64,000 nt of DNA from a virus. Location of the stretch: positions 1 through 64,000 of IMG/VR virus record IMGVR_UViG_3300034280_001042, one strand, 5' to 3'. Below the pieces are notes generated by a model, which ran no database searches, was not told where the DNA came from, and was given only the letters and a program-made list of their open reading frames with translations. A program made the translations under genes and the position numbers. Shown one piece after another: positions 46,214 to 58,194 of the stretch; the stretch's first letter is position 1; every line of letters starts with the position of its first letter.

Positions 46214-47247
46214 TCACATACTTTCGAAGTAGTTCATATAATACCCACAGTCTTTGTGAGCAACAATATTTTATTGAATATGTTCTTGGATGGAGAGGTC
46301 CGTCTGGTCAAAAGGCCGATAAAGGAACTATTGTCCATAAGGTTTTAGAAATTTTAGCTGTCATTAAAAAAGGACAGCAAGACGGTATGACCGAAATAGA
46401 CGATGATGTAGTTGGCCATATTGATGTGAATAATTATAATCTGGATACTATCACACAAAAAGTATACAAGCACTACACAGAGAGATCTCCGCATCACAAG
46501 TGGGCACCTAAAGACTATAAGGATTGTCATTCCTGGGTTTATAAGGCAATCGAATTAAATAATGGCATGTTTGATCCTAGAAATCGTAATATTTTAATGC
46601 CAGAACAACATTTTGATTTTGAAATAAAAAAACCATGGTCTAAATACTCTTATAATCTTACAGACGGTTCTGTATTAGAGGGTAATTTGGCCATGAAAGG
46701 TACTATTGATTTAATAACTCTTGTTAATAAAGATACTATCGAGGTAATTGACTGGAAAACAGGTAAAAGATTAGACTGGGCAACGGGACAAGAAAAAACC
46801 CAAGAAAAGCTTGAGAACGATCCACAACTAAGAATTTACCACTATGCCATTAAACACTTATATCCTGATATTAAAAACATTATATTCTCTATCTATTTTA
46901 TTAATGATGGTGGACCTTTTTCTATTTGTTTTCATGATAGCGATATTGCTGAAACAGAAAATATACTTCGTAGAAAATTTGATATAATAAAACAAACTAC
47001 TAAACCTAAACTTAATAAGTCTTGGATGTGTAGTAAACTGTGTCATTTTGGTAAGACTACTTTTGCTAATACTAGTATCGAACCTGTTATCGAGTATAGA
47101 AATGGTCAGTTGTGCTCAAAGGACACGACCATGACAAAGTGCGAACAAATAAAACACGATCTAGACTTATATGGAATCGACGCTACTATAGGGCTATACA
47201 AGCACCCGAATCACTCCTTTGGATCATACAAAGCTCCCGGAACATGA
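46207..47247 (+). CDS. Cas4/RecB-like PD-(D/E)xK nuclease, non-canonical start
   Basis: 346 residues if started at ATT 46207; the first in-frame ATG (46387) would remove the whole conserved N-terminus TYFRSSSYNTHSLCEQQYF and KGTIVHKVLE. The catalytic core has Asp168 (KGTIDLI) and D182-W-K184 in EVIDWKTGK. Cys17 plus Cys275 and Cys279 (WMCSKLC) and Cys303/Cys312 are placed like the four Fe-S ligands of Cas4 and AddB. Likely a 5'-3' or 3'-5' ssDNA exonuclease in recombination, or part of the polymerase operon. Stop overlaps the dnaE start (ATGA). Confidence 0.75.
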   Translation: MIITYFRSSSYNTHSLCEQQYFIEYVLGWRGPSGQKADKGTIVHKVLEILAVIKKGQQDGMTEIDDDVVGHIDVNNYNLDTITQKVYKHYTERSPHHKWAPKDYKDCHSWVYKAIELNNGMFDPRNRNILMPEQHFDFEIKKPWSKYSYNLTDGSVLEGNLAMKGTIDLITLVNKDTIEVIDWKTGKRLDWATGQEKTQEKLENDPQLRIYHYAIKHLYPDIKNIIFSIYFINDGGPFSICFHDSDIAETENILRRKFDIIKQTTKPKLNKSWMCSKLCHFGKTTFANTSIEPVIEYRNGQLCSKDTTMTKCEQIKHDLDLYGIDATIGLYKHPNHSFGSYKAPGT

Positions 47248-49109
47248 AACAATACATCCCTTTGCATGTACATTCTCATTATAGTCTTATGGATGGTCTT
47301 AGTAAGCCAGCTCAAATAGCAACTAGATGTGCTAAAATTGGAGTTCAATCTTGTGCTATTACTGATCATGGATCTATTTCTGGAACAGTACAGTTTTATC
47401 AAGCACTTAAGAAACAAAAGATAAAACCAATACTAGGTTGTGAGCTATATATTTCTAAAGACAATAGTTCATTAAAAGTCAAAGAAAATAGCAAACTAAG
47501 TCACTTTTTAGTTTTGGCTAAAAACTATGCTGGGTGGAAAACCTTGATTAATATTGTTTCAGAATCTAACTCAGAATCTAACTTTTATCATAAGCCAAGA
47601 CTAGACTTTAAAACACTATCCAAGCTATTAGATGGTAATATTATAGGATTTTGTGGTCATTTGGGATCCAGTCTAGCTAATCTAATTCAAGAATCCACAG
47701 ATTCCATAGAAAAGTCTGGCACAGAATTCATTGCTCAAATGAAAGATATTTTTGGTCAAGACAATTTCTTTCTAGAAGCACAACTAATGGATAGAGAGTA
47801 TTCTAAAGAACAAATAGAAATGACAGAGCATATTAGAAGGCTTGGTCAAATAACTAATACTAAAGTAATCTGTACTCCAGATGCCCATTATTGTGAAAAA
47901 GAAGACGCTATTGATCAACGCATATTACTATGTAATAATCTTAAAACAACACTAATTGATGTCAATAAAAAAATTCTTAACGATGAATCTGTAGCTATGG
48001 ATTGTTTTTTTAAGTCAGATAATTTCCATATTCTAAGTCCAGAAGAAATGGCAAGTCTACATACAGACGAAGAAATAGAAAATACTAACTATGTAAATTC
48101 ATTATGTGAAGAATACGATATTCTACACAAACCTCTTCTTCCAGAATTTAAATGTCCGCCAAACTTTAATCCCGACGAATATCTAAGAGAACTATGTCGT
48201 AAAGGATGGAGAGAAAAAATAGATAAGCAAATAGCTAAAGAAGACCATCAACAGTATGTAGATAGAATCAAATTTGAACTAGAAATCTTACAAGGTGCCG
48301 GATTATCTAGTTACTTTTTAATTGTGCAAGATATTGTTAATCTCGTTAGATCTAAGGGTTGGTTGCCGGGTCCGGGTAGAGGTTCTGCTGCTGGATGTTT
48401 AGTATCATATCTAATCGGAATCACGTCTATCAATCCTATAAAGTATGATTTGATCTTTGAAAGATTTTATAATGCTGGTAGAAACACATCAGACCATATC
48501 TCTATGCCAGATATTGATGTTGACGTACCCATTAATAAAAGAGAACAGATTATCTCATATATTAAAAACAAGTATGGTCACGATAAAGTATCTCAAATGA
48601 TTACATTTAATACTATGAAGGGTCGAGGAGCCCTAAAAGAAGTATTAAGAGTCTATGGTAATATTAGTTTCGACGAAATGAACCGTATAACTAAATACAT
48701 TCCGGATGAAGCTAAAATTGCAGACGAACTACAAGAGATGAAAGAAGATACTGGAGAAGCATCAATTATTCGATGGGCCTTAGAAAATAATGTTGACAAA
48801 CTCAAAGAATGGTGCTATATATCTGAAGACAATACACTAGCAGGCCCTCTTGCTAAAAGATTTGAACAAGCTATACGTTTAGAAGGAACAAAATCTAACC
48901 AATCGAAACATGCTGCTGGTGTAGTTATTAGTAGCGAAAATCTAAAACTTGTTTGTCCTATGATATATGATTCTAAGAACAAGCAGTCGATTGCTGGTAT
49001 GGAGATGCAAGATTTAGAAAGCCTTGGCGTGATTAAATTTGATATTCTTGGTATAGCTATGTTGGATAAAATTATGACTATAACAGATATCCTTAAAAAT
49101 GGAGAATAA
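47244..49109 (+). CDS. dnaE-n: DNA polymerase III alpha subunit, N-terminal fragment (split DnaE)
   Basis: 621 residues from the ATG at 47244 (ATGA overlap; a longer form from 47112 would add residues that lie in the nuclease gene). PHP domain: HVHSHYSLMDG (8-18) and a later PDAHYC. Palm: GRGSAAGCLVSYL, then catalytic D423 and D425 in PDIDVDVP and D600 in IKFDILG, matching E. coli D401/D403/D555. The chain ends 21 residues after D600. No intein or splice junction is seen at the end (KNGE stop). Confidence 0.85.
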   Translation: MKQYIPLHVHSHYSLMDGLSKPAQIATRCAKIGVQSCAITDHGSISGTVQFYQALKKQKIKPILGCELYISKDNSSLKVKENSKLSHFLVLAKNYAGWKTLINIVSESNSESNFYHKPRLDFKTLSKLLDGNIIGFCGHLGSSLANLIQESTDSIEKSGTEFIAQMKDIFGQDNFFLEAQLMDREYSKEQIEMTEHIRRLGQITNTKVICTPDAHYCEKEDAIDQRILLCNNLKTTLIDVNKKILNDESVAMDCFFKSDNFHILSPEEMASLHTDEEIENTNYVNSLCEEYDILHKPLLPEFKCPPNFNPDEYLRELCRKGWREKIDKQIAKEDHQQYVDRIKFELEILQGAGLSSYFLIVQDIVNLVRSKGWLPGPGRGSAAGCLVSYLIGITSINPIKYDLIFERFYNAGRNTSDHISMPDIDVDVPINKREQIISYIKNKYGHDKVSQMITFNTMKGRGALKEVLRVYGNISFDEMNRITKYIPDEAKIADELQEMKEDTGEASIIRWALENNVDKLKEWCYISEDNTLAGPLAKRFEQAIRLEGTKSNQSKHAAGVVISSENLKLVCPMIYDSKNKQSIAGMEMQDLESLGVIKFDILGIAMLDKIMTITDILKNGE

Positions 49110-49111
49110 TT

Positions 49112-49297
49112 ATGGAGAAACAGTTCAGTCAATTAGCAGTAGGTGATAAGTTTATGGTAAATGGCGTACAATATGTTAAAGCAGTAGAAGTTAAAGTTAG
49201 TTGTTGCAAGTCGATCAACGCAACTGCTTCGGCTAACAGTAACGAGAAGACTTTTTTCCCAGGAAATACCCTAGTAACAGTGGAAACCAATGGCTAA
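49112..49297 (+). CDS. Small beta-barrel-like phage protein
   Basis: 61 residues. FSQLAVGDKFMVNGVQYVKAVEVKV and SINATASANSN then FFPGNTLVTVE follow a pattern of short phage proteins with a small beta fold (from memory of T4-like and SPO1-like genomes). Sits three bases after the polymerase N-fragment and overlaps the exonuclease by eight bases. Function unknown. Confidence 0.55.
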   Translation: MEKQFSQLAVGDKFMVNGVQYVKAVEVKVSCCKSINATASANSNEKTFFPGNTLVTVETNG

Positions 49298-49988
49298 TTT
49301 TCAAAAATTTTGTGTGTTCGATTTAGAGACAGATGGTTCTAATCCAGATGTCTGTAGTCCAGTACAAATTGCTGCTGTGATTATAGATCCTTTTAGATTA
49401 GAAATAGTGAAAGATTCAGAGTTTAATATCACACTAAAACCAGCAGCTTTGGAAGAAAAAGAAGAATACGCCTATGAAGATAGCGATGTTCTTGATTTTC
49501 ATGCCAAAGTAAGGGGGTGCGCTAAAGACAAGATTCTATCAGATTGGCATTCTTATCAGAAACAAGAGCATGGATGGAAGATGTTTGTATCTTACCTAGA
49601 TATGTATCATACAAGGTCCGATAGAAAATCTTGCTTTAGTGCCCCTATTGCTGCTGGATATAATATTAACAGATTCGACTTAAAAATCATAGATAGATTA
49701 AGTCAGAAATATAAGAACATCAATAAGGAAGGAAAATCCAGTCTTTTTTATCCAAGAGACGTTGTGGATTTAATGAATGTTGTATTTTATTGGTTCGAAG
49801 GTAATAACGAACTCAAAAATTACACACTAGACCATGTAAGAGATTACTTTGGTTTAAGCAAAGAAGGTTCACATGATGCTCTTAAAGATGTTAAAGACAC
49901 AGCAGAGCTTTTGATTAGGTTTATGAGACTATTTAGGAACACATCATCTAAGGTAAAATTTAAAGGATCGTGTACAGCAAATGGCTGA
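49290..49988 (+). CDS. DnaQ-like 3'-5' exonuclease (proofreading)
   Basis: 232 residues. Exo I D11-x-E13 in VFDLETDG, Exo II in AGYNINRFDLKII, Exo III H-x4-D in GSHDALKDVKDT: the DEDDh set. The chain is about the length of epsilon subunits. Found between the two pieces of the polymerase and overlapping the C-terminal piece by eight bases, so it is very likely their proofreading partner. Confidence 0.8.
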   Translation: MANFQKFCVFDLETDGSNPDVCSPVQIAAVIIDPFRLEIVKDSEFNITLKPAALEEKEEYAYEDSDVLDFHAKVRGCAKDKILSDWHSYQKQEHGWKMFVSYLDMYHTRSDRKSCFSAPIAAGYNINRFDLKIIDRLSQKYKNINKEGKSSLFYPRDVVDLMNVVFYWFEGNNELKNYTLDHVRDYFGLSKEGSHDALKDVKDTAELLIRFMRLFRNTSSKVKFKGSCTANG

Positions 49989-51606
49989 GTATTATACTTT
50001 TGATTGCGGTTGTAAATTTCCTGTTATTTCTCAGTCTGGTGAATTCCCTAAAATTGATTTTACTCCAAATGTAGAGAATCTAAATTTAGATTGCCAAAGA
50101 ACATGGGAACTGATATCAGAAGGAAATACAAAAGGTTGTTTTCAGCTAGAGTCTAGGTTAGGCCAAACGATGGCCCGTAAGCTTAAACCAGAAAATATGG
50201 AACAGCTATCTGGTCTGATCAGTATTCTTAGACCAGGATGTTTGGAAGCCTATAGAGATGGCAAAAGCGTATCTAATCACTATATAGATAAAAAGAATGG
50301 ATCTGAGTCAATTGACTTTTTCCATCCTGCTCTTGAAGAATCTTTAAAGAGTACCTACTCAGAAATGGTCTACCAAGAACAGGCTATGCAAATCTCACAA
50401 AAAATTGCGGGATTTGATCTTCAAGAAGCCGATATGTTAAGAAAAGCTATTGGGAAAAAGAAACCAGAAGAAATGGCTAAGGTTAAAAAGAAATTCATTG
50501 AGGGAGCAAAAAAGGTTAAAATTGTTGACGAATCTGAAGCAGAAGAGATTTTCGGTTGGATAGAAAAATCTCAGAGATATAGTTTTAATAAGTCCCACGC
50601 GATTTCATATGCTATTAATGCTTATATGTCAGCATATGCGAAAGCACACTTCCCAAGAATCTTTTTTGCATCATATCTAAGATTTGCTAAAGACAAAATA
50701 GATCCTCAACAGGAAATAAAAGAGCTGGTTAGAAATGCAACCGAAATGGATATTATTGTTTCTATTCCAGATATACGATATCTAAACGAATTCTTTATTC
50801 TCAAGAATAAGATTATTTATTTTGGATTAACAGATATCAAAGGGGTTGGTCAATCTGTCTTTAAGAAGATATTAAGCTTAACAAAAGAAATAGACCTCAA
50901 AACCGCAACATGGCTACAAATCCTAACTCAACTACTGCTCAATATTAATTCAACAGCAAGTAAAGCATTGATCTCTGCTGGGGCTTTGGACTATTTAAAA
51001 AAGAATAGAACAGAGATGCTATTTGAATATGATATATGCTCTTCTTTAACTAAAAAAGAATTACAGCTTTTAATGGAAATAATATCAGAAAGCAATCCCA
51101 AGAACCTCAAAGAAGCATTAGGTTCTATGTTGTTAATCAAAAAAGTGACTAAAAATAGGCAACCTAATATTCAAGCTTTAATTCAGTCTATAGATAAACC
51201 TCCATATTCTTTGCTAGATAAAATTGAGTGGTTATCTGACTCTGAGAATTCTTTACTTGGCACAGCAATAACCTGTTCCAAGCTGGATACTTATGATACT
51301 AGTATGTCAAACTGTAACTGTAAAACATTTAAAACTACTTTTACCAAAGAAAATATTGTTTTAGCTGCCGAAATTAGTAATATCAATATTACCAAAACCA
51401 AAAACGGTAAAAATCCAGGACAAGAAATGGCCTTTCTCACAATTGAAGATCAGTACGGAGTATTGGATTCTGTTGTCTTTTTTCCAGAACAATTAGCTAA
51501 ATATAAACATCATTTATTTGTTGAGAATATTCTCGTTTTTGTAGGAAATAAAAGCAAGACCAAAGACGGTCTTATAGTAGAAAAATGTTTCATCCCAGTC
51601 ACTTGA
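49981..51606 (+). CDS. dnaE-c: DNA polymerase III alpha subunit, C-terminal fragment (split DnaE)
   Basis: 541 residues. After a 45-residue N-terminal extension with DCGCKFPVI it continues at TWELISEGNTKGCFQLESRLGQ, which matches the fingers region just after the palm in unsplit DnaE, then ISILRPG, MVYQEQAMQI, FNKSHAISYAINAY, the helix-hairpin-helix FGLTDIKGVGQSVFKKIL and an OB-fold ending (LTIEDQYGVLDSVVF). All the parts that the N-fragment lacks are here. Its TGA is inside the -35 box of the ssb promoter. Confidence 0.85.
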   Translation: MAEYYTFDCGCKFPVISQSGEFPKIDFTPNVENLNLDCQRTWELISEGNTKGCFQLESRLGQTMARKLKPENMEQLSGLISILRPGCLEAYRDGKSVSNHYIDKKNGSESIDFFHPALEESLKSTYSEMVYQEQAMQISQKIAGFDLQEADMLRKAIGKKKPEEMAKVKKKFIEGAKKVKIVDESEAEEIFGWIEKSQRYSFNKSHAISYAINAYMSAYAKAHFPRIFFASYLRFAKDKIDPQQEIKELVRNATEMDIIVSIPDIRYLNEFFILKNKIIYFGLTDIKGVGQSVFKKILSLTKEIDLKTATWLQILTQLLLNINSTASKALISAGALDYLKKNRTEMLFEYDICSSLTKKELQLLMEIISESNPKNLKEALGSMLLIKKVTKNRQPNIQALIQSIDKPPYSLLDKIEWLSDSENSLLGTAITCSKLDTYDTSMSNCNCKTFKTTFTKENIVLAAEISNINITKTKNGKNPGQEMAFLTIEDQYGVLDSVVFFPEQLAKYKHHLFVENILVFVGNKSKTKDGLIVEKCFIPVT

Positions 51607-51630: not shown

Positions 51631-51681
51631 ACTCATGGCGTTTGAGTTTTTTTGAGTTTAAACTTTTAGGAGAATATTCAT

Positions 51682-52056
51682 ATGAATATTACTTTGCTTC
51701 GAGGGAATTTAGCTAGAGATCCAGAATTGCGTATTGTTAACACTTCAGGTAAGCAAACATCTGTGGTCAACTTTACTGTTGCAGTATCTAGAGAGTATGT
51801 GAAGGCTAGCGGAGATAAGGATAAGATTACTTCCTTTATTAACTGTGAAGCCTGGGATACCGGGGCTGAGATGATTGCAGAATCCTTTAAGAAGGGTGAT
51901 CTAGTAATGATTGAGGGATCTTTACGAAATGACTCGTGGGAAAAAGACGGTGTGAAACACAGCAGCTTGAAGGTTAGAGTAAATAACTTTTCAAAGATCG
52001 CTAAGCTATCACGACCAAGTAGTAAAACAGAAAATGCTGAGTCTGTAGCTTTCTGA
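51682..52056 (+). CDS. ssb: Single-stranded DNA-binding protein
   Basis: 124 residues. LRGNLARDPELRIV, VVNFTVAVSREY, FINCEAWDTGAEMIAESFKKGDLVMIEGSL and a KDGVKHSSLKVRVNNF are the OB-fold of bacterial SSB; the tail is short (PSSKTENAESVAF) and ends with hydrophobic VAF rather than DDDIPF. Own promoter and terminator, so it is probably transcribed apart from its neighbours and may be highly expressed. Confidence 0.9.
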   Translation: MNITLLRGNLARDPELRIVNTSGKQTSVVNFTVAVSREYVKASGDKDKITSFINCEAWDTGAEMIAESFKKGDLVMIEGSLRNDSWEKDGVKHSSLKVRVNNFSKIAKLSRPSSKTENAESVAF

Positions 52057-52086
52057 ACATAATTCATCCAGGAAAAAGCAGAATAC

Positions 52087-52109
52087 GGGGGCGAAAGCCC
52101 CCTTATTTT
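52087..52109 (+). terminator. Rho-independent terminator after ssb
   Basis: GGGGGC - GAAA - GCCCCC hairpin with a stable tetraloop followed by TTATTTT. The six-pair GC stem is the strongest such structure I saw in the window. It separates ssb from the following glycan genes. Confidence 0.9.
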
Positions 52110-52120
52110 GTATCTATAAT

Positions 52121-53785
52121 ATGTCAAACAAACTTAAAATCTTAATGTGTTCCGAAGCTAGTTTTTTAAATTCTGGATTTGGAACGTATACCAAAGAACT
52201 ACTCTCTCGTCTTCATAAAACCAACAAATATGTTATTGCAGAATTTGCTTCTTATGGTTTTGTCAATGACCCAAGAGACAAAGACATTGAGTGGACCTAC
52301 TACGCAAACGCTGTAAAAGACACGGACCCTAGACATAAAGAATATACGTCTAGAGGAGATAACCAATTTGGTCGATGGAGATTTGAGAAAGTTCTATTAG
52401 ATTTTAAGCCAGATGTAGTTATTGATATTAGAGACTATTGGATGACAGCATACCAAGAAACGTCGCCTTTGCGTAAGTATTTTCATTGGATTCTGATGCC
52501 AACAGTGGATTCTGAACCACAACAAGAGGACTGGATAGATACCTTCTTATCGGCAGATGCTATTTTTACATATTCTGATTGGGGTGCAGAAGTTCTTAAA
52601 AAACAAAGCTCCAACAAGATTAAATATATTGATACTGTTTCTCCAGGAGTTGATTTAAATACATTTAAGATCAAAGACAGAACAGCTATAAAAAAAGCAG
52701 CAGGATTCAAAGATAATGACATTATCATTGGTTCTGTCATGAGAAATCAAAAAAGGAAACTCTTTCCAGAACTGCTAACATCTTTTCGCTCTGTCTTAGA
52801 TAATCTTGAAAATACTAATCCAGAACTTGGCTCAAGACTATTTTTATATCTACATACCAGCTATCCAGATATGGGATGGGATATTCCCGAACTCTTAAAG
52901 GATACTAGATTAGCTAACAAGGTTTTCTTTTCGTATGTATGCAAAAGTTGCAAAAATACTAGCTGTAATGTTTATAGTGGTGTTCAAACAGTTTGTCAAA
53001 AATGTTTGCACAAAACATGCGGTATGCCATCTGTTACAGATGGATTTAGCTCATCAAATTTAGCAGACGTATATAATCTGTTCGATCTTTACGTTCAATA
53101 TTCCATATGTGAGGGATTTGGGATGCCTCAAGTGGAGGCCGGGGCCTGTGGAGTACCCGTTGCAACGGTTGATTATAGTGCTATGTGCGACGTTATTAAA
53201 AAGCTCGATGCCTTCCCAATCAGGGTTAAAACCAAGTTCAAGGAACTCGAAACCAAAGCATTAAGAGTATATCCAGATAATGATCACTTGGCCAGTATTA
53301 TCTTAGATTATATACAGTTACCAGAAGATATTAGAAACAATAAAAGACAAACAATTAGAAAATTGACAGAAAAATATTATGATTGGGATCAAGTAGCCGA
53401 AACATGGGAAAAGTATCTGGATAGCTTAGACCAATCAGGGTTCAGATCAAATTGGGACTCTAAAGCCCAGACGATTGGCCCAATACAAAAATCTCAAAAT
53501 ATTAATCGTCACGATCATTTCGAAACACTATTATCAACCTGTAGCTATCCTTTCAACAAACCGGACATGATAGCATCTGCAAAAATTCTAGGTATGCTAC
53601 GAGATGCTGATTATGGATTTGCTCAAGGCGGACCAACTCAAATTATTCCTTTTGGATATAACAACATAGAAGACTATTTACAAATCTTGGTTAATAATCA
53701 AAACCATGCTGAGAAGGTCAAAGAAGACAAAGTTTCTTTTGACGAAGATTTTATCCTATACGCAAAGCTGAAGAATCAAAAATGA
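52121..53785 (+). CDS. GT4-type glycosyltransferase with zinc-finger-like insert
   Basis: 554 residues. N-domain SEASFLNSGFGTYTKELLSRL (G-x-G-x-x-x donor/acceptor loop). C-domain: IGSVMRNQKRKLFPELL and CEGFGMPQVEAGACGVPV (the E-x7-E donor motif) are classic GT4. Between them, near residues 272-306, is CKSCKNTSC...CQKC..KTCG, six Cys that look like a zinc-ribbon insert, which most GT4 enzymes lack. Starts 12 bases after the terminator with little room for its own promoter. Confidence 0.75.
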   Translation: MSNKLKILMCSEASFLNSGFGTYTKELLSRLHKTNKYVIAEFASYGFVNDPRDKDIEWTYYANAVKDTDPRHKEYTSRGDNQFGRWRFEKVLLDFKPDVVIDIRDYWMTAYQETSPLRKYFHWILMPTVDSEPQQEDWIDTFLSADAIFTYSDWGAEVLKKQSSNKIKYIDTVSPGVDLNTFKIKDRTAIKKAAGFKDNDIIIGSVMRNQKRKLFPELLTSFRSVLDNLENTNPELGSRLFLYLHTSYPDMGWDIPELLKDTRLANKVFFSYVCKSCKNTSCNVYSGVQTVCQKCLHKTCGMPSVTDGFSSSNLADVYNLFDLYVQYSICEGFGMPQVEAGACGVPVATVDYSAMCDVIKKLDAFPIRVKTKFKELETKALRVYPDNDHLASIILDYIQLPEDIRNNKRQTIRKLTEKYYDWDQVAETWEKYLDSLDQSGFRSNWDSKAQTIGPIQKSQNINRHDHFETLLSTCSYPFNKPDMIASAKILGMLRDADYGFAQGGPTQIIPFGYNNIEDYLQILVNNQNHAEKVKEDKVSFDEDFILYAKLKNQK

Positions 53786-54777
53786 ATACAATATATCTAG
53801 GACCATATAGAGATAATACAATTAATGGGGTGTGGTCGTATAATATTTTATCCAGCCTATTAGAACATCCAAACCATCAAGTAACTTGCAGACCAATATA
53901 CTTAGAATCATCAAATGTAAGTACTCGCAATCCTAGAAATAACGATTCTGCTATATCGGCAGCAGAACATACCATTCAGTCAACATATGACTGCTTGATT
54001 CAACATATACGTCCAGAAAATATTGTTTCTAATAAATCTCTTAAAAATATTTGTATACCAATTATAGATAGTGAATTTTTATCTCATAAAGCTATTACCA
54101 ATCTTAAGAATTGTGATTTAATTCTAGTTGATAATGCATTAAATTTCCAAAAGTTATCTACCATACTTGAACAAACCTCAAACATAGAGCTATTTCAATA
54201 TGGGGTTGATACTAATTATGGCAATGATACATATGATTTTGGTCCATATTCGTATATGAAAAAAATGTATACGATAGCGAATTATGCTGCAAATTCTGAT
54301 CTTTATAGCGATCTTTTGATAGACTTTATTATTTTGACACAAAAATATGAAAACTTATGTTTGGTTTTATTTGTTGTAGATTCCGGAGGGTCTATACAAG
54401 AAATACAAAAGATAATAGATAAAACATATGAGAGCCTCAATATAATAGCTTCGCTCAAAAAGATTTGTATTATACCAATCTTACCAACTATAGAAAATCT
54501 GGTTTCTTGTCATAAAATATGTGATATGTATTTGAATATTAACGATGACATTCGTAGCACAGCAAACTCTGCATATGCGTATGCCTTAGATAAGCCAACA
54601 ATTGAACACCATAATCTATCGTTTCAAATGACCCCTATAAGAAATAGTAAAATTAGTAAACATTGGTACGATGTCCCATCTAATCAGAGTATAATGACAG
54701 CTATGCAAAATATTTTATCTAATCCAACTAAGGGTCAGTTTTTACCAAATTCAAAATCTCTGGAATTGTTTTTATGA
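53782..54777 (+). CDS. Degenerate GT-B-like protein
   Basis: 331 residues. NGVWSYNILSSLLEHPNHQ resembles the start of a GT4-like fold and IPILPTIENLVSCHKICDMYLNINDDIRSTAN the E-x7-E region, here without the second glutamate. TAIRTSP is not conserved. Might be an inactive partner of the previous enzyme. ATGA overlap on both sides. Confidence 0.5.
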   Translation: MNTIYLGPYRDNTINGVWSYNILSSLLEHPNHQVTCRPIYLESSNVSTRNPRNNDSAISAAEHTIQSTYDCLIQHIRPENIVSNKSLKNICIPIIDSEFLSHKAITNLKNCDLILVDNALNFQKLSTILEQTSNIELFQYGVDTNYGNDTYDFGPYSYMKKMYTIANYAANSDLYSDLLIDFIILTQKYENLCLVLFVVDSGGSIQEIQKIIDKTYESLNIIASLKKICIIPILPTIENLVSCHKICDMYLNINDDIRSTANSAYAYALDKPTIEHHNLSFQMTPIRNSKISKHWYDVPSNQSIMTAMQNILSNPTKGQFLPNSKSLELFL

Positions 54778-55643
54778 GTTCTAACTTTGTCTATAATACG
54801 CTTAATAAATTATTAGATAGTAATATTAATATATTATATGAACCAAATCAAAGCTTATTTGATGTTGTATTTCCTGAAATAGACGCAACAATATTACGAA
54901 CAGAATCAGCTTCTTCTAAGTATTTTTACTATGATGCTTATGTAACCAGTAATTTTTTCTCTCATGTAAATTATAGAAATAAATTCTTACACAATCATCA
55001 AACTCAAGACGTTGTAATCTTTCATCAAAAAACCCCAAATGTATTTAAAAAAGAAGATAAAACGATATTAAGAAACAATTTGTCTTCTGCCTATAAAATA
55101 TTTCCAACCAGCGTTATTGCAGACGAGTGGGGAATACAAGATAAAAAATCAATAACTATTAATTATGGAATACCAAGTATAAAACATGAATTAATACCAT
55201 TTAAAAACAGAAATACTGTTTTATTTATGAATTTTAATGATGATACAAATGTAAATAATTTATTTGCTAGTATTAAAACATTTTTCCCTGATGCTATTTT
55301 AATAAACAAATTAGTAAATAACAGTTTAGAAGAAACACTTAAATTAATATCCAACTATAAAATAGTTATAGATTTAGCACATCCATTCAACGCCCTATGT
55401 GCAACAGCTTGTGGGTGCTTCACTGTAACTAATCAGATTAGTGATGATTCAATTAAGTCTTGCTTGGTTACACAGAATTTTAGAGACGCAAAAGAATTAC
55501 TATCGGATATTATTAATAACGCTAATACCGATTTAATTGAAAAAGATAAAGAGTACATTATAATGAATTATTCAATGAACATCTTTATAGATAATATGAC
55601 AAAACTATTTAATAGAATCAAAATGGAGCCATTCATAATATGA
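54774..55643 (+). CDS. Glycosyltransferase-like protein, divergent
   Basis: 289 residues. Two alpha/beta halves: an N-terminal one ending in IFHQKTPNVFK, and a C-terminal one with NTVLFMNFNDDTN, KIVIDLAHPFNALCATACGCFTVT, the place of the GT-B donor helix. The catalytic acids cannot be pointed out. Member of the overlapping second island. Confidence 0.45.
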   Translation: MSSNFVYNTLNKLLDSNINILYEPNQSLFDVVFPEIDATILRTESASSKYFYYDAYVTSNFFSHVNYRNKFLHNHQTQDVVIFHQKTPNVFKKEDKTILRNNLSSAYKIFPTSVIADEWGIQDKKSITINYGIPSIKHELIPFKNRNTVLFMNFNDDTNVNNLFASIKTFFPDAILINKLVNNSLEETLKLISNYKIVIDLAHPFNALCATACGCFTVTNQISDDSIKSCLVTQNFRDAKELLSDIINNANTDLIEKDKEYIIMNYSMNIFIDNMTKLFNRIKMEPFII

Positions 55644-56053
55644 AACGTAATATTCATTTGTGTAATATTCACAGTAAACAAGTATCAGATGCTGAACCAG
55701 TAGACATATCTACTATTTCTAGTGTTGTTAATTTGTCTGTCGATACTATTTTTTGCGATTCTTTAGAGTCTATAGCAGCAGAAGATTTGTCTAAAAAATT
55801 TGTAGAAATATTAAACAAAATCCGACCTAATGGATATCTGATATTAAATATCTTAGACATAAAAAAACTTTGCTCAGAGTACTTACAAAATACTATTTCA
55901 AACCAAGTTTTCTTATCACTAATCAAAGACAAAAATAATTTTATTAGTATAGATAATATATATTCTTTAATAGACACTAAACATTTTCAAATTATGAAAA
56001 TCGATACTGATCAAAATACTATTTCTGTAGTTATTCAAAGGACAAAAATATGA
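55640..56053 (+). CDS. Truncated methyltransferase-like protein
   Basis: 137 residues. DTIFCDSLESIAAEDLSKKFVEILNKIRPNGYLILNILDI resembles the post-SAM part of class I methyltransferases (motif V-like I-R-P-N-G-Y-L), but the SAM glycine loop is missing. Possibly a pseudo-enzyme or binding domain. ATGA overlaps link it to both neighbours. Confidence 0.45.
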   Translation: MKRNIHLCNIHSKQVSDAEPVDISTISSVVNLSVDTIFCDSLESIAAEDLSKKFVEILNKIRPNGYLILNILDIKKLCSEYLQNTISNQVFLSLIKDKNNFISIDNIYSLIDTKHFQIMKIDTDQNTISVVIQRTKI

Positions 56054-56802
56054 CAGCAACATCTTGTAAGGACTGTGTTTTTGCTCATTCAATTAATTCT
56101 ATTAAGTCATGTGATTTTAATCTTATTGATAGTATAAAAAATACTAGAGATATAGAAACTAAAGACAATTATAACTATATTCCAAACTATCACTGTAAGT
56201 ATGGCCTATCTAAAAAAACATATTACGCCAATAAGGATAAGTTTGAAGAAATTGATTTGATGAACTATATTCGACATAGAAATCTAATAAAATATTATCT
56301 TGTCATAGATTTAGAAGACGAGACTAATATTGAAGCATTATGCTTACATATCAATTCTTTATCGATTAAACCTGATTTTGTTTCTATATTAGCCTATGCA
56401 TCTGATATGGCTGATCTTATAGAAGTTATCAAAACTAACATTGGTTCGGATATAAGGTGGAAACTGCACAATTTAATAAATAAAGACATGGATCATAGTC
56501 TTGCTTTAAAGGTTGCTTTAGATACGAGTCCTATTCTTGATAAAACACAGTTTATCTGGATTAATAGATCATCTGATATGCAATATATAGCTGAGTCTGA
56601 TATTGTATCTAAAATTAACTATATCGTAAATATAGAGCAGCCTGTTTGTAATTTTGTTGGCTCTCAAATCTTATCAAGCGATAATTTCCATAATTTATTG
56701 ATGTCTGTTGCCACATACAAACACATTATTAAACATATTTCCTCTTCCTTAGCAGATGGCATAAAGCAATTAGGAACAACAGTAACAGCTTATTATGATT
56801 AA
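56050..56802 (+). CDS. Cys-rich glycan-island protein, unknown
   Basis: 250 residues. N-terminal SCKDCVFA ... SCDFNL ... YHCKYG, four to five Cys that may bind zinc, then an alpha/beta domain (YYLVIDLEDETNIEALCLH and KPDFVSILAYAS) like a glycosyltransferase A core without a DxD. Eight-base overlap with the next gene. Confidence 0.45.
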   Translation: MTATSCKDCVFAHSINSIKSCDFNLIDSIKNTRDIETKDNYNYIPNYHCKYGLSKKTYYANKDKFEEIDLMNYIRHRNLIKYYLVIDLEDETNIEALCLHINSLSIKPDFVSILAYASDMADLIEVIKTNIGSDIRWKLHNLINKDMDHSLALKVALDTSPILDKTQFIWINRSSDMQYIAESDIVSKINYIVNIEQPVCNFVGSQILSSDNFHNLLMSVATYKHIIKHISSSLADGIKQLGTTVTAYYD

Positions 56803-57469
56803 TGTTTTAGTTTTAATACCAGAAATAACAAAGGGAATGAAATCCATTGGATCAAAATCTTTGTTAAAAATTAAAAACTCTAAATCTATCATAGAACACC
56901 AAATCGAACTATTGCTTTCTATGAAGAATAAAGTCTCTATTAATATTGCAACAGGATTTGATAATGACAAAATAAATAAAACTATAGATAAATACAAAAA
57001 TATTAATATCATATATAATGATCAATATGAAAATACTAATTATGGTAAATGTATAAAATTATTCATACAACAAAATCCGAATATTGATAATTTATTTGTG
57101 ATCGGGAGCGGTATTCTTTTTAAAGAGAATATTTTTTCGCAAAGTTCTTTTGGTAATATATCTAGAATTTTTATATTAGACAAACCAGCCAATAATTTTA
57201 ACATAGGATGTAATCCCAATAAAAATATTGAATATTTGTTTTATGATTTACCAGAGCCTTGGGCAGAGTGTGTGTATTTCGATCTTTCCGGAATCGGAGG
57301 ATTGAAAACTTTAATAGAACAGAAAAATATAGATCAGATGTATATTTTTGAAATAATCAACGATTTATTATTATTGAATATAGATTTTCAGAAAGAGTAT
57401 TTTTCTAGAAGCAAGTTTTTTAAAATATCTAGTACAAAAGACATAAATAGGGCTAAATTATTTATATGA
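56795..57469 (+). CDS. Sugar nucleotidyltransferase-like protein, degenerate
   Basis: 224 residues. LIPEITKGMKSIGSKSLLKIKNSKSIIEHQIELLL follows the pattern of the nucleotidyltransferase start (G-x-G-x-x-K-x-L-x-x-I...I-x-H-Q), and IIYNDQYENTNYGKCIKLFI matches the second signature. The glycine loop is altered to K-G-M-K-S, so activity is uncertain. If active, it would make an NDP-sugar for the island. Confidence 0.5.
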   Translation: MINVLVLIPEITKGMKSIGSKSLLKIKNSKSIIEHQIELLLSMKNKVSINIATGFDNDKINKTIDKYKNINIIYNDQYENTNYGKCIKLFIQQNPNIDNLFVIGSGILFKENIFSQSSFGNISRIFILDKPANNFNIGCNPNKNIEYLFYDLPEPWAECVYFDLSGIGGLKTLIEQKNIDQMYIFEIINDLLLLNIDFQKEYFSRSKFFKISSTKDINRAKLFI

Positions 57470-58194
57470 GTATATTATTTATTCAGGATTCGGATAATAA
57501 GTTCGTTAATAATATAAAATTAACACAGATTCCAAACCACCAGATAATGTTTGGTCCTATAAATCAAAATTTATATGGTTTATACTATAATTATCGTTTT
57601 AGTCATTTGATACTCATGGCTTCTATGCTGGACCAAGAAACTCTACAGTTTGTGTCAGAATATCATGCAGAAATTAAATGCTATGTATATAGCGATATTT
57701 ATATAAGTCCTAATATAGTAGAGCTATATAAGAATAAGGTTACTTTTATCTTAAGAAACAAACAGAATCATATCTCTAAAGATAATTCTATTATACTACC
57801 TAAACTAGTGAACGAAGAACTCTTTAATAGTCTCAATCAATCGCCAAACAGACATAATTCTATTATTTGTTTTATAGATCATTTAGATAAAATTCCTGAC
57901 TCATTAAATCAATATTTATATCCAATGACAAAGCTACCAATTAAATTATTTAATAATAGTAACATAAAACATCATCAAAACCTAGGAACTCTATCAGAGA
58001 TAGACAAAGCATCTATGCTGCAACAGGTTCGATATTATCTTACTATTGACGAGCACTATCTTGCTGAAGCTTGGGCTGGAGGATGCGATGTTTTGACTAT
58101 AGAGGAATTAGACCTAATACAACCCAAAAAATATAAACATAAAAAACAATGTCAAACATATAAAAGCTTTATGGAGAATTTTTTAAATGCTTAA
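57466..58194 (+). CDS. Unknown GT-B-like protein
   Basis: 242 residues. Alpha/beta with LNQYLYPMTKLPIKLFNN and QQVRYYLTIDEHYLAEAWAGGCDVLTIEE, reminiscent of the donor half of a GT-B enzyme with E-A-W-A-G-G-C in place of E-A-x-A-x-G. Overlaps both neighbours, ATGA-type at the start. Confidence 0.45.
   Translation: MSILFIQDSDNKFVNNIKLTQIPNHQIMFGPINQNLYGLYYNYRFSHLILMASMLDQETLQFVSEYHAEIKCYVYSDIYISPNIVELYKNKVTFILRNKQNHISKDNSIILPKLVNEELFNSLNQSPNRHNSIICFIDHLDKIPDSLNQYLYPMTKLPIKLFNNSNIKHHQNLGTLSEIDKASMLQQVRYYLTIDEHYLAEAWAGGCDVLTIEELDLIQPKKYKHKKQCQTYKSFMENFLNA

Follow-up and report, generated by a model that had tools for sequence, protein, structure and literature searches.

Organization of the split DnaE locus

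The virus record IMGVR_UViG_3300034280_001042 of IMG/VR is comprised of 91,971 bases, of which bases 1-64000 were analysed (this whole stretch is referred to as the window). On its plus strand, the window encodes the alpha subunit of DNA polymerase III (DnaE, C family) in two separate genes, dnaE-N and dnaE-C, with a small open reading frame (ORF), S61, and the gene of a DEDDh exonuclease, EXO, lying between them (Table 1). This arrangement had been described in a first-pass annotation of the DNA, and the positions and lengths of the ORFs were found to be as given there. S61 and EXO are the only plus strand ORFs between the two pieces at a minimum of 50 amino acids (aa). The reading frame of dnaE-N extends upstream as far as a GTG at 47112, its start being placed by homology at the ATG at 47244. 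The overlap of EXO and dnaE-C by 8 nucleotides (nt) suggests translational coupling of these two genes in the window.

Table 1. Features of the split DnaE gene run (positions in the window).
Feature	Coordinates	Strand	Length
dnaE-N (PHP domain and palm with D423/D425/D600)	47244..49109	+	621 aa
Codons of D423-I424-D425, palm catalytic carboxylates	48510..48518	+	
Codon of D600, third palm carboxylate, 21 residues from the dnaE-N end	49041..49043	+	
S61, ORF with function unassigned	49112..49297	+	61 aa
Overlap of S61 stop and EXO start	49290..49297	+	8 nt
EXO, DEDDh 3'-5' exonuclease (D11, E13, D130, H195, D200)	49290..49988	+	232 aa
Overlap of EXO stop and dnaE-C start	49981..49988	+	8 nt
dnaE-C (fingers, helix-hairpin-helix, OB fold)	49981..51606	+	541 aa
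C9-G10-C11 knuckle, clade-specific N-terminal extension of dnaE-C	50005..50013	+	
C38 of dnaE-C (Asp in the outgroup DnaE rows)	50092..50094	+	
FNKSH motif, intact within dnaE-C	50584..50598	+	
C447 of dnaE-C, clade-invariant Cys directly before the OB fold	51319..51321	+	

Domain content and predicted structures

Pfam assigns a PHP domain (8.4e-38) and DNA_pol3_alpha (1.8e-73) to dnaE-N, and DNA_pol3_finger (1.5e-44) and HHH_6 (2.2e-9) to dnaE-C, whose AlphaFold model in addition matches OB folds with Z scores of 11-12. The resulting order of PHP, beta-nucleotidyltransferase palm, fingers, helix-hairpin-helix and OB is that of DnaE, spread across two chains, and agrees with the domains that the first-pass annotation had read into the two pieces. 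Bacterial DnaE (E. coli 2hnh/5fkv, Thermus 2hpi, M. tuberculosis 7pu7) has the same domains in the same order, but is a single chain where that of the window is two. Bacterial DnaE also carries a C-terminal tau-binding domain, for which, judging from the sequence, dnaE-C has no room after its OB match, which covers residues 460-531 of 541 and leaves ~10 residues to the end. Between the two pieces, EXO has the DEDDh residues and matches RNase_T (2.3e-10) and phrog_192, 'DNA polymerase exonuclease subunit' (4.8e-19), in line with its earlier assignment, while S61 shows a weak match to phrog_2183 (E 0.008) and an invariant C31-C32 pair (56/56 aligned sequences).

The two pieces cover one DnaE fold end to end. 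Profile phrog_405 (1190 positions) spans both, with positions 41-615 matched by dnaE-N and 622-1053 by dnaE-C, and this six-position gap upholds the earlier proposal that the second piece resumes where an unsplit DnaE would continue. When compared by sequence with Thermus DnaE, dnaE-N matches up to residue 627 and dnaE-C from 646. AlphaFold models of dnaE-N and dnaE-C, folded as single chains from 42-row alignments, were aligned with solved DnaE chains: on E. coli alpha (2hnh) the dnaE-N model covers 3-576 (Z 32.9, root-mean-square deviation (rmsd) 4.0 over 492) and the dnaE-C model 576-910 (Z 14.7, rmsd 8.8 over 324); on M. tuberculosis 7pu7 they cover 7-608 (Z 32.4, rmsd 4.8 over 499) and 606-1099 (Z 17.3, rmsd 15.0 over 443); and on Thermus 2hpi 5-639 (Z 34.0, rmsd 4.7 over 495) and 639-1123 (Z 14.7, rmsd 12.0 over 405). 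The aligned ranges being contiguous in the solved chains, the break is therefore placed in the loop that leads from the last palm helix to the fingers.

Conservation of the split among relatives

Three overlapping scans of IMG/VR, made with the C pieces of the window and of loci L081 and L144 and limited to the best 80 relatives each, yielded 227 loci, many of which are one contig under a second id, with 112 different C genes; at ~95% nucleotide identity these loci group into 99 clusters. The split is common to the relatives, as every clade member examined bears out: N and C are separate ORFs in 99/99 clusters, and the position of the break is constant in all of them, the N profile match ending at 617-621 and the C match starting at 1-4. 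With the break at the same place in every cluster, the arrangement is therefore not due to chance. The plain order N-S61-EXO-C is found at 204/227 loci, the remaining 23 consisting of 18 in which N is re-cut, three that begin within S61 at a contig end and two in which EXO is interrupted in frame. Counted by cluster, 92/99 display N-S61-EXO-C, six N1/N2-S61-EXO-C and one a broken EXO, and 0 are unsplit. The EXO-C overlap measures 8 nt in 43/98 clusters and 4 nt in 18/98 (other spacings in 37/98), and these short overlaps suggest translational coupling in most clusters.

A pattern search across the whole viral collection for an N-C junction in fused form, with the motifs 120-243 nt apart, gave 0 matches; the pattern required exact motif matches and fused forms outside the clade are beyond its reach, but since 84/99 clusters carry both motifs, most fused members would have been detected. 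Pairwise distances (51 sequences) correlate between N and C with r = 0.86, and between each of these and EXO with 0.74, as is expected of co-inherited genes, a part of the correlation presumably coming from shared ancestry. In relatives as distant as 62% identity (to the window's C piece), both pieces are still open and no catalytic residue is missing. Assembly error or decay was considered as a source of the split and rejected, given its presence in all clusters from many IMG/VR data sets.

Extra DNA lies between the pieces in L073/L074, L149, L155 and L146, with the order unchanged. In two of these (L146:2861-6486 and L155:3877-6453), about 2.5-3.6 kb separates EXO from dnaE-C, and in L146 this interval encodes ThyX (Thy1, 3.8e-34) as well as a DUF1559 protein (4.3e-41) with a prepilin-type N_methyl start (1.1e-8). 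DUF1559 is typical of Planctomycetes, which is a possible hint to the host. Among bacterial genomes, a single locus was recovered, L083; its contig belongs to a Lake Lanier bin assigned to Alphaproteobacteria, which does not prove its host.

Conserved residues and other polymerases in the records

The palm carboxylates D423, D425 and D600 of dnaE-N are invariant in 54/54 aligned sequences, as are N203, S205 and H206 of FNKSH (dnaE-C residues 202-206) in 59/59, and D11, E13, D130, H195 and D200 of EXO are invariant wherever aligned. Residues H8, H10, D17, H42, E67, H87, D213 and H215 of dnaE-N, which we take to be PHP metal ligands by their appearance, are retained in almost every row extending that far; at positions 8 and 10, for example, His is found in 37 rows, one row is different and 16 begin later. 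Conservation of at least 97% is displayed by 250/621 residues of dnaE-N and 168/541 of dnaE-C.

Eighteen records, comprising that of the window and 17 related ones (38-233 kb, none known to be complete), were searched for other polymerases. The finger domain occurs in one place in 18/18 records and DNA_pol3_alpha in one place in 16/18, the other two having two half places that correspond to a re-cut N. No second or full DnaE was found in the 91,971-base record or in the 17 related records, which are possibly fragments; together with the kept catalytic residues, this supports the earlier view that neither piece is a decayed copy of a DnaE encoded elsewhere. Family A polymerase, family B polymerase (PF00136) and the third domain of the beta clamp were each absent from the 15 records searched for them (0/15), again possibly fragments.

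These observations bear on the possibility that the pieces are remnants with another role, for instance in a PHP/exonuclease repair module, and that the host replicase copies the phage. The missing beta clamp domain speaks for such dependence to the extent that a host factor is probably needed anyway. We nevertheless consider remnants improbable: the palm Asp and the three FNKSH residues named are invariant, a large share of both pieces is conserved, 15 records yielded no other replicative polymerase, and the neighbours include, upstream of dnaE-N, genes of a DnaB-like helicase, a primase and a dNMP kinase as well as a gene of an exonuclease family (phrog_69) and, downstream of dnaE-C, an SSB gene.

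The start of dnaE-C is a further distinctive element. It comprises ~20-25 residues that are absent from the other DnaE proteins compared, with C9-G10-C11 located between two predicted strands. C9, C11, C38 and C447 are invariant in 59/59 aligned dnaE-C, and of the DnaE proteins compared, those of this clade alone have the complete set; the C38 column is Cys in 9/9 clade rows and Asp in 18/18 outgroup rows. The four cysteines are a candidate zinc site, possibly fixing the new N-terminus of dnaE-C.

Inteins, introns and endonucleases

In cyanobacteria, DnaE-N and DnaE-C result from a split beside the FNKSH motif, and the halves are ligated by the Npu/Ssp split intein. The polymerase of the window resembles cyanobacterial DnaE in being a C-family polymerase in two genes, but its break lies ~200 residues earlier, with FNKSH inside the second piece, as the first-pass annotation had pointed out, and no intein was found. 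It is very improbable that the halves are joined after translation by a split intein that escaped detection, or by RNA trans-splicing. Intein models of Pfam and NCBIfam gave no match in dnaE-N or dnaE-C up to E = 1, which confirms the earlier statement that the junctions show no intein, and Rfam gave 0 matches in the window, whereas the intein N-terminal model TIGR01445, serving as positive control, does match the relative L134. Also, dnaE-N ends three residues past its last predicted helix, and dnaE-C has its own start and the CGC knuckle with the invariant C9 and C11. What joining has in its favour is that the clade meets such elements, as the following loci illustrate.

The N piece is itself cut by a split intein between GPGRG and S381 in L134 and L147, as well as in copies of these two loci, within regions (L134:2538-5617 and L147:2568-5628) that are additional to the split between N and C. 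An intein N-half closes the first part of N (TIGR01445 with E 1.5e-8 for L134 and Intein_splicing with 6e-9 for L147), and the second part starts with an intein C-half terminating in GVHN before S (by eye; Pfam 0.04-0.1). A free-standing ORF that weakly matches endonuclease families lies between the halves. This corresponds to the 'fractured gene' arrangement reportedly described by Dassa in 2009. The clade thus carries split inteins that are easily visible, but not at the break between N and C.

In L010, L051-L057 and L083, the palm is re-cut just before MPDIDVD, at about aa 420 (L010:2140-5133, L051:2126-5119 and L083:1942-4935). The ORF found there is a LAGLIDADG protein by Pfam in L010 and L083, and L051-L057 have a similar layout. 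The N parts of L083 yielded no intein, and the four re-cut loci searched (L010, L051, L053 and L083) no Rfam intron. The second part of N has an N-terminal extension of ~90 residues, of which 47/93 are identical without gaps between L010 and L083, and which looks coding; relatives of the L010, L051 and L083 type possibly have a three-chain polymerase. In L074, the ORF between N and S61 looks by eye like an HNH endonuclease, Pfam giving only a weak helix-turn-helix match.

A separate in-frame insert was observed in a nuclease gene upstream of dnaE-N (L010:38-2023, with PDDEXK_1, and L083:2-1945). It contains a LAGLIDADG domain (Pfam, L010) and has an intein-like end, PTHN before TG (by eye), its first residue being apparently Gly and not Cys or Ser.

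Comparison with known split polymerases

No close cultivated relatives were found, the INPHARED matches of N and C all being below 60% identity and the best listed below 36%, and EXO had no INPHARED match at E 1e-5. In a tree of 27 DnaE proteins, the clade forms one group (100/100) on a long stem of 1.76 changes per site. Pseudomonas phage Y1 and Acinetobacter phage MD-2021a resembled bacterial DnaE and were entered as bacterial rows. Sister groups between the clade and the outgroups at 30-35% were not found, no scan having been aimed at outgroups.

The split is not unique to the clade, as cultivated phages also have a split DnaE, and Rossellomorea phage phiT1 (PV767480, gp20-gp19-gp18) has it at the same site. 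Its two genes, both annotated 'DNA polymerase III subunit alpha', are broken in the same palm-to-fingers loop and enclose a 49-aa gene, and no intein is seen by eye. Unlike the window, to which it shows 33% (N) and 32% (C) identity, phiT1 has no exonuclease gene between the halves and no CGC extension, and keeps Asp at the C38 column. In a 21-row tree, made after removal of three long-branch and three clade rows, phiT1 joins the clade weakly (41/91), and its split may or may not go back to a shared event. Other phages are broken elsewhere. Bacillus phage Jayan (PQ299153) has two annotated DnaE genes with a break at about aa 413-418 of the window's N and pairs in the tree with phage BpsS36 (100/99), whose DnaE is unsplit; splits therefore arose more than once. 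The Microbacterium phages TinyMiny (Krampusvirus) and JingleBells also have two annotated DnaE genes, with the PHP domain in a gene of its own, while in Bacillus phage KLEB27-3 (OM634661) the two annotated genes are broken within FQ(I/L)ES with an HNH ORF between them, an interruption that is possibly an intron.

These systems also bear on the origin of the break. It may be the scar of a homing endonuclease or split intein that is no longer present, with EXO and S61 moving in, a scenario compatible with chains that assemble without joining and to which we give somewhat less than an even chance. The fresh fractures of N within the clade (the intein of L134/L147, LAGLIDADG in L010/L083, L051-L057, and the HNH-like ORF of L074) illustrate how such splits could originate, and KLEB27-3 has its annotated HNH ORF right at the DnaE break; against it, no trace of such an element was seen at the break between N and C in the window, and phiT1 has only the 49-aa gene there.

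Two-gene polymerases have been described in other phages. Iyer et al. 2021 (PMC7824862) report a split minimal PolIII alpha in group 2.2 jumbo phages, the two proteins of which are thought to reconstitute the enzyme; the other PolIII domains are described as missing, the genes as distant and a family B polymerase as present. The window shares with these phages a PolIII alpha catalytic module in two proteins, but it differs in having PHP, helix-hairpin-helix and OB, in the short distance between the genes (49109 to 49981) and in the absence of Pol B from the searched records. Phage MIJ3 has a family B polymerase joined by a split intein (PMC6892783), and the OM43 phages MEP401/402 have split DNA polymerase genes with a small ORF between (PMC10580990); both are like the window in that a phage replicative polymerase is encoded by two genes, MIJ3 differing by its polymerase family and by the intein. 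Searches of the open-licence literature found no account of the clade or of a two-gene DnaE flanking an exonuclease, which is weak evidence of absence. What seems new is the fixation of the split in all clade members examined, the exonuclease between the halves, the cysteine set and the further breaks.

Proposed assembly of the two-chain polymerase

On the comparative evidence we consider it likely, with a probability of about 0.86, that the two genes encode the phage's own replicative C-family polymerase, permanently divided, and that its chains assemble without being covalently joined. The N chain, with PHP, palm and the catalytic Asp residues, and the C chain, with fingers, helix-hairpin-helix and OB, would be translated separately from one operon, and the exonuclease and the 61-aa protein would be made alongside them, mostly coupled via the short gene overlaps. 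N and C would associate at the broken palm-to-fingers loop and thereby restore the DnaE active site, EXO would bind the polymerase for proofreading, and a zinc clasp of C9, C11, C38 and C447 may hold the new N-terminus of the C chain.

Several observations weigh against this reading. There is a bias in the sampling of relatives, as each of the three scans retained only its best 80 out of 462, 399 and 404, and a single gene order in 92/99 clusters is also expected from shared ancestry alone. The OB match of dnaE-C is below threshold in Pfam (2.2e-5, 24.8 bits vs a cut-off of 27). The predicted structures are of moderate quality, with a mean predicted local distance difference test score (pLDDT) of 73.7 and a predicted template modelling score (pTM) of 0.75 for dnaE-N, in which residues 454-520 and 535-557 are below 50, and 82.6 and 0.61 for dnaE-C; the latter model also deviates from the solved DnaE chains by an rmsd of 8-15 Angstrom, which probably reflects a loose placement of its domains. 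As to the cysteine set, one of the 18 outgroup rows, Bxz1like, also has Cys at the loosely aligned C447 column. Finally, a second polymerase could be located elsewhere, as none of the records is known to be complete.

A more elaborate arrangement is doubtful: N, S61, EXO and C would be co-translated to form an obligate multi-chain core, with EXO (perhaps S61) sitting at the break, the zinc site closing the loop, and a three-chain catalytic subunit in relatives of the L010, L051 and L083 type.

Replicative polymerases are usually seen as single chains. If the phage indeed replicates with two unjoined chains, the only replicase detected would be kept in two pieces, and the palm-to-fingers connection of C-family polymerases would hence be dispensable. 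A natural two-chain polymerase of this kind would also be useful for the design of split enzymes.

Other features of the window

A 149-aa ORF (51678-52127, minus strand) is antisense to the SSB gene (51682-52056) and is probably a chance frame. A large share of the window (11658-33417 and 52121-58194) is occupied by a long series of ORFs that look, by eye, like glycosyltransferases and methyltransferases.

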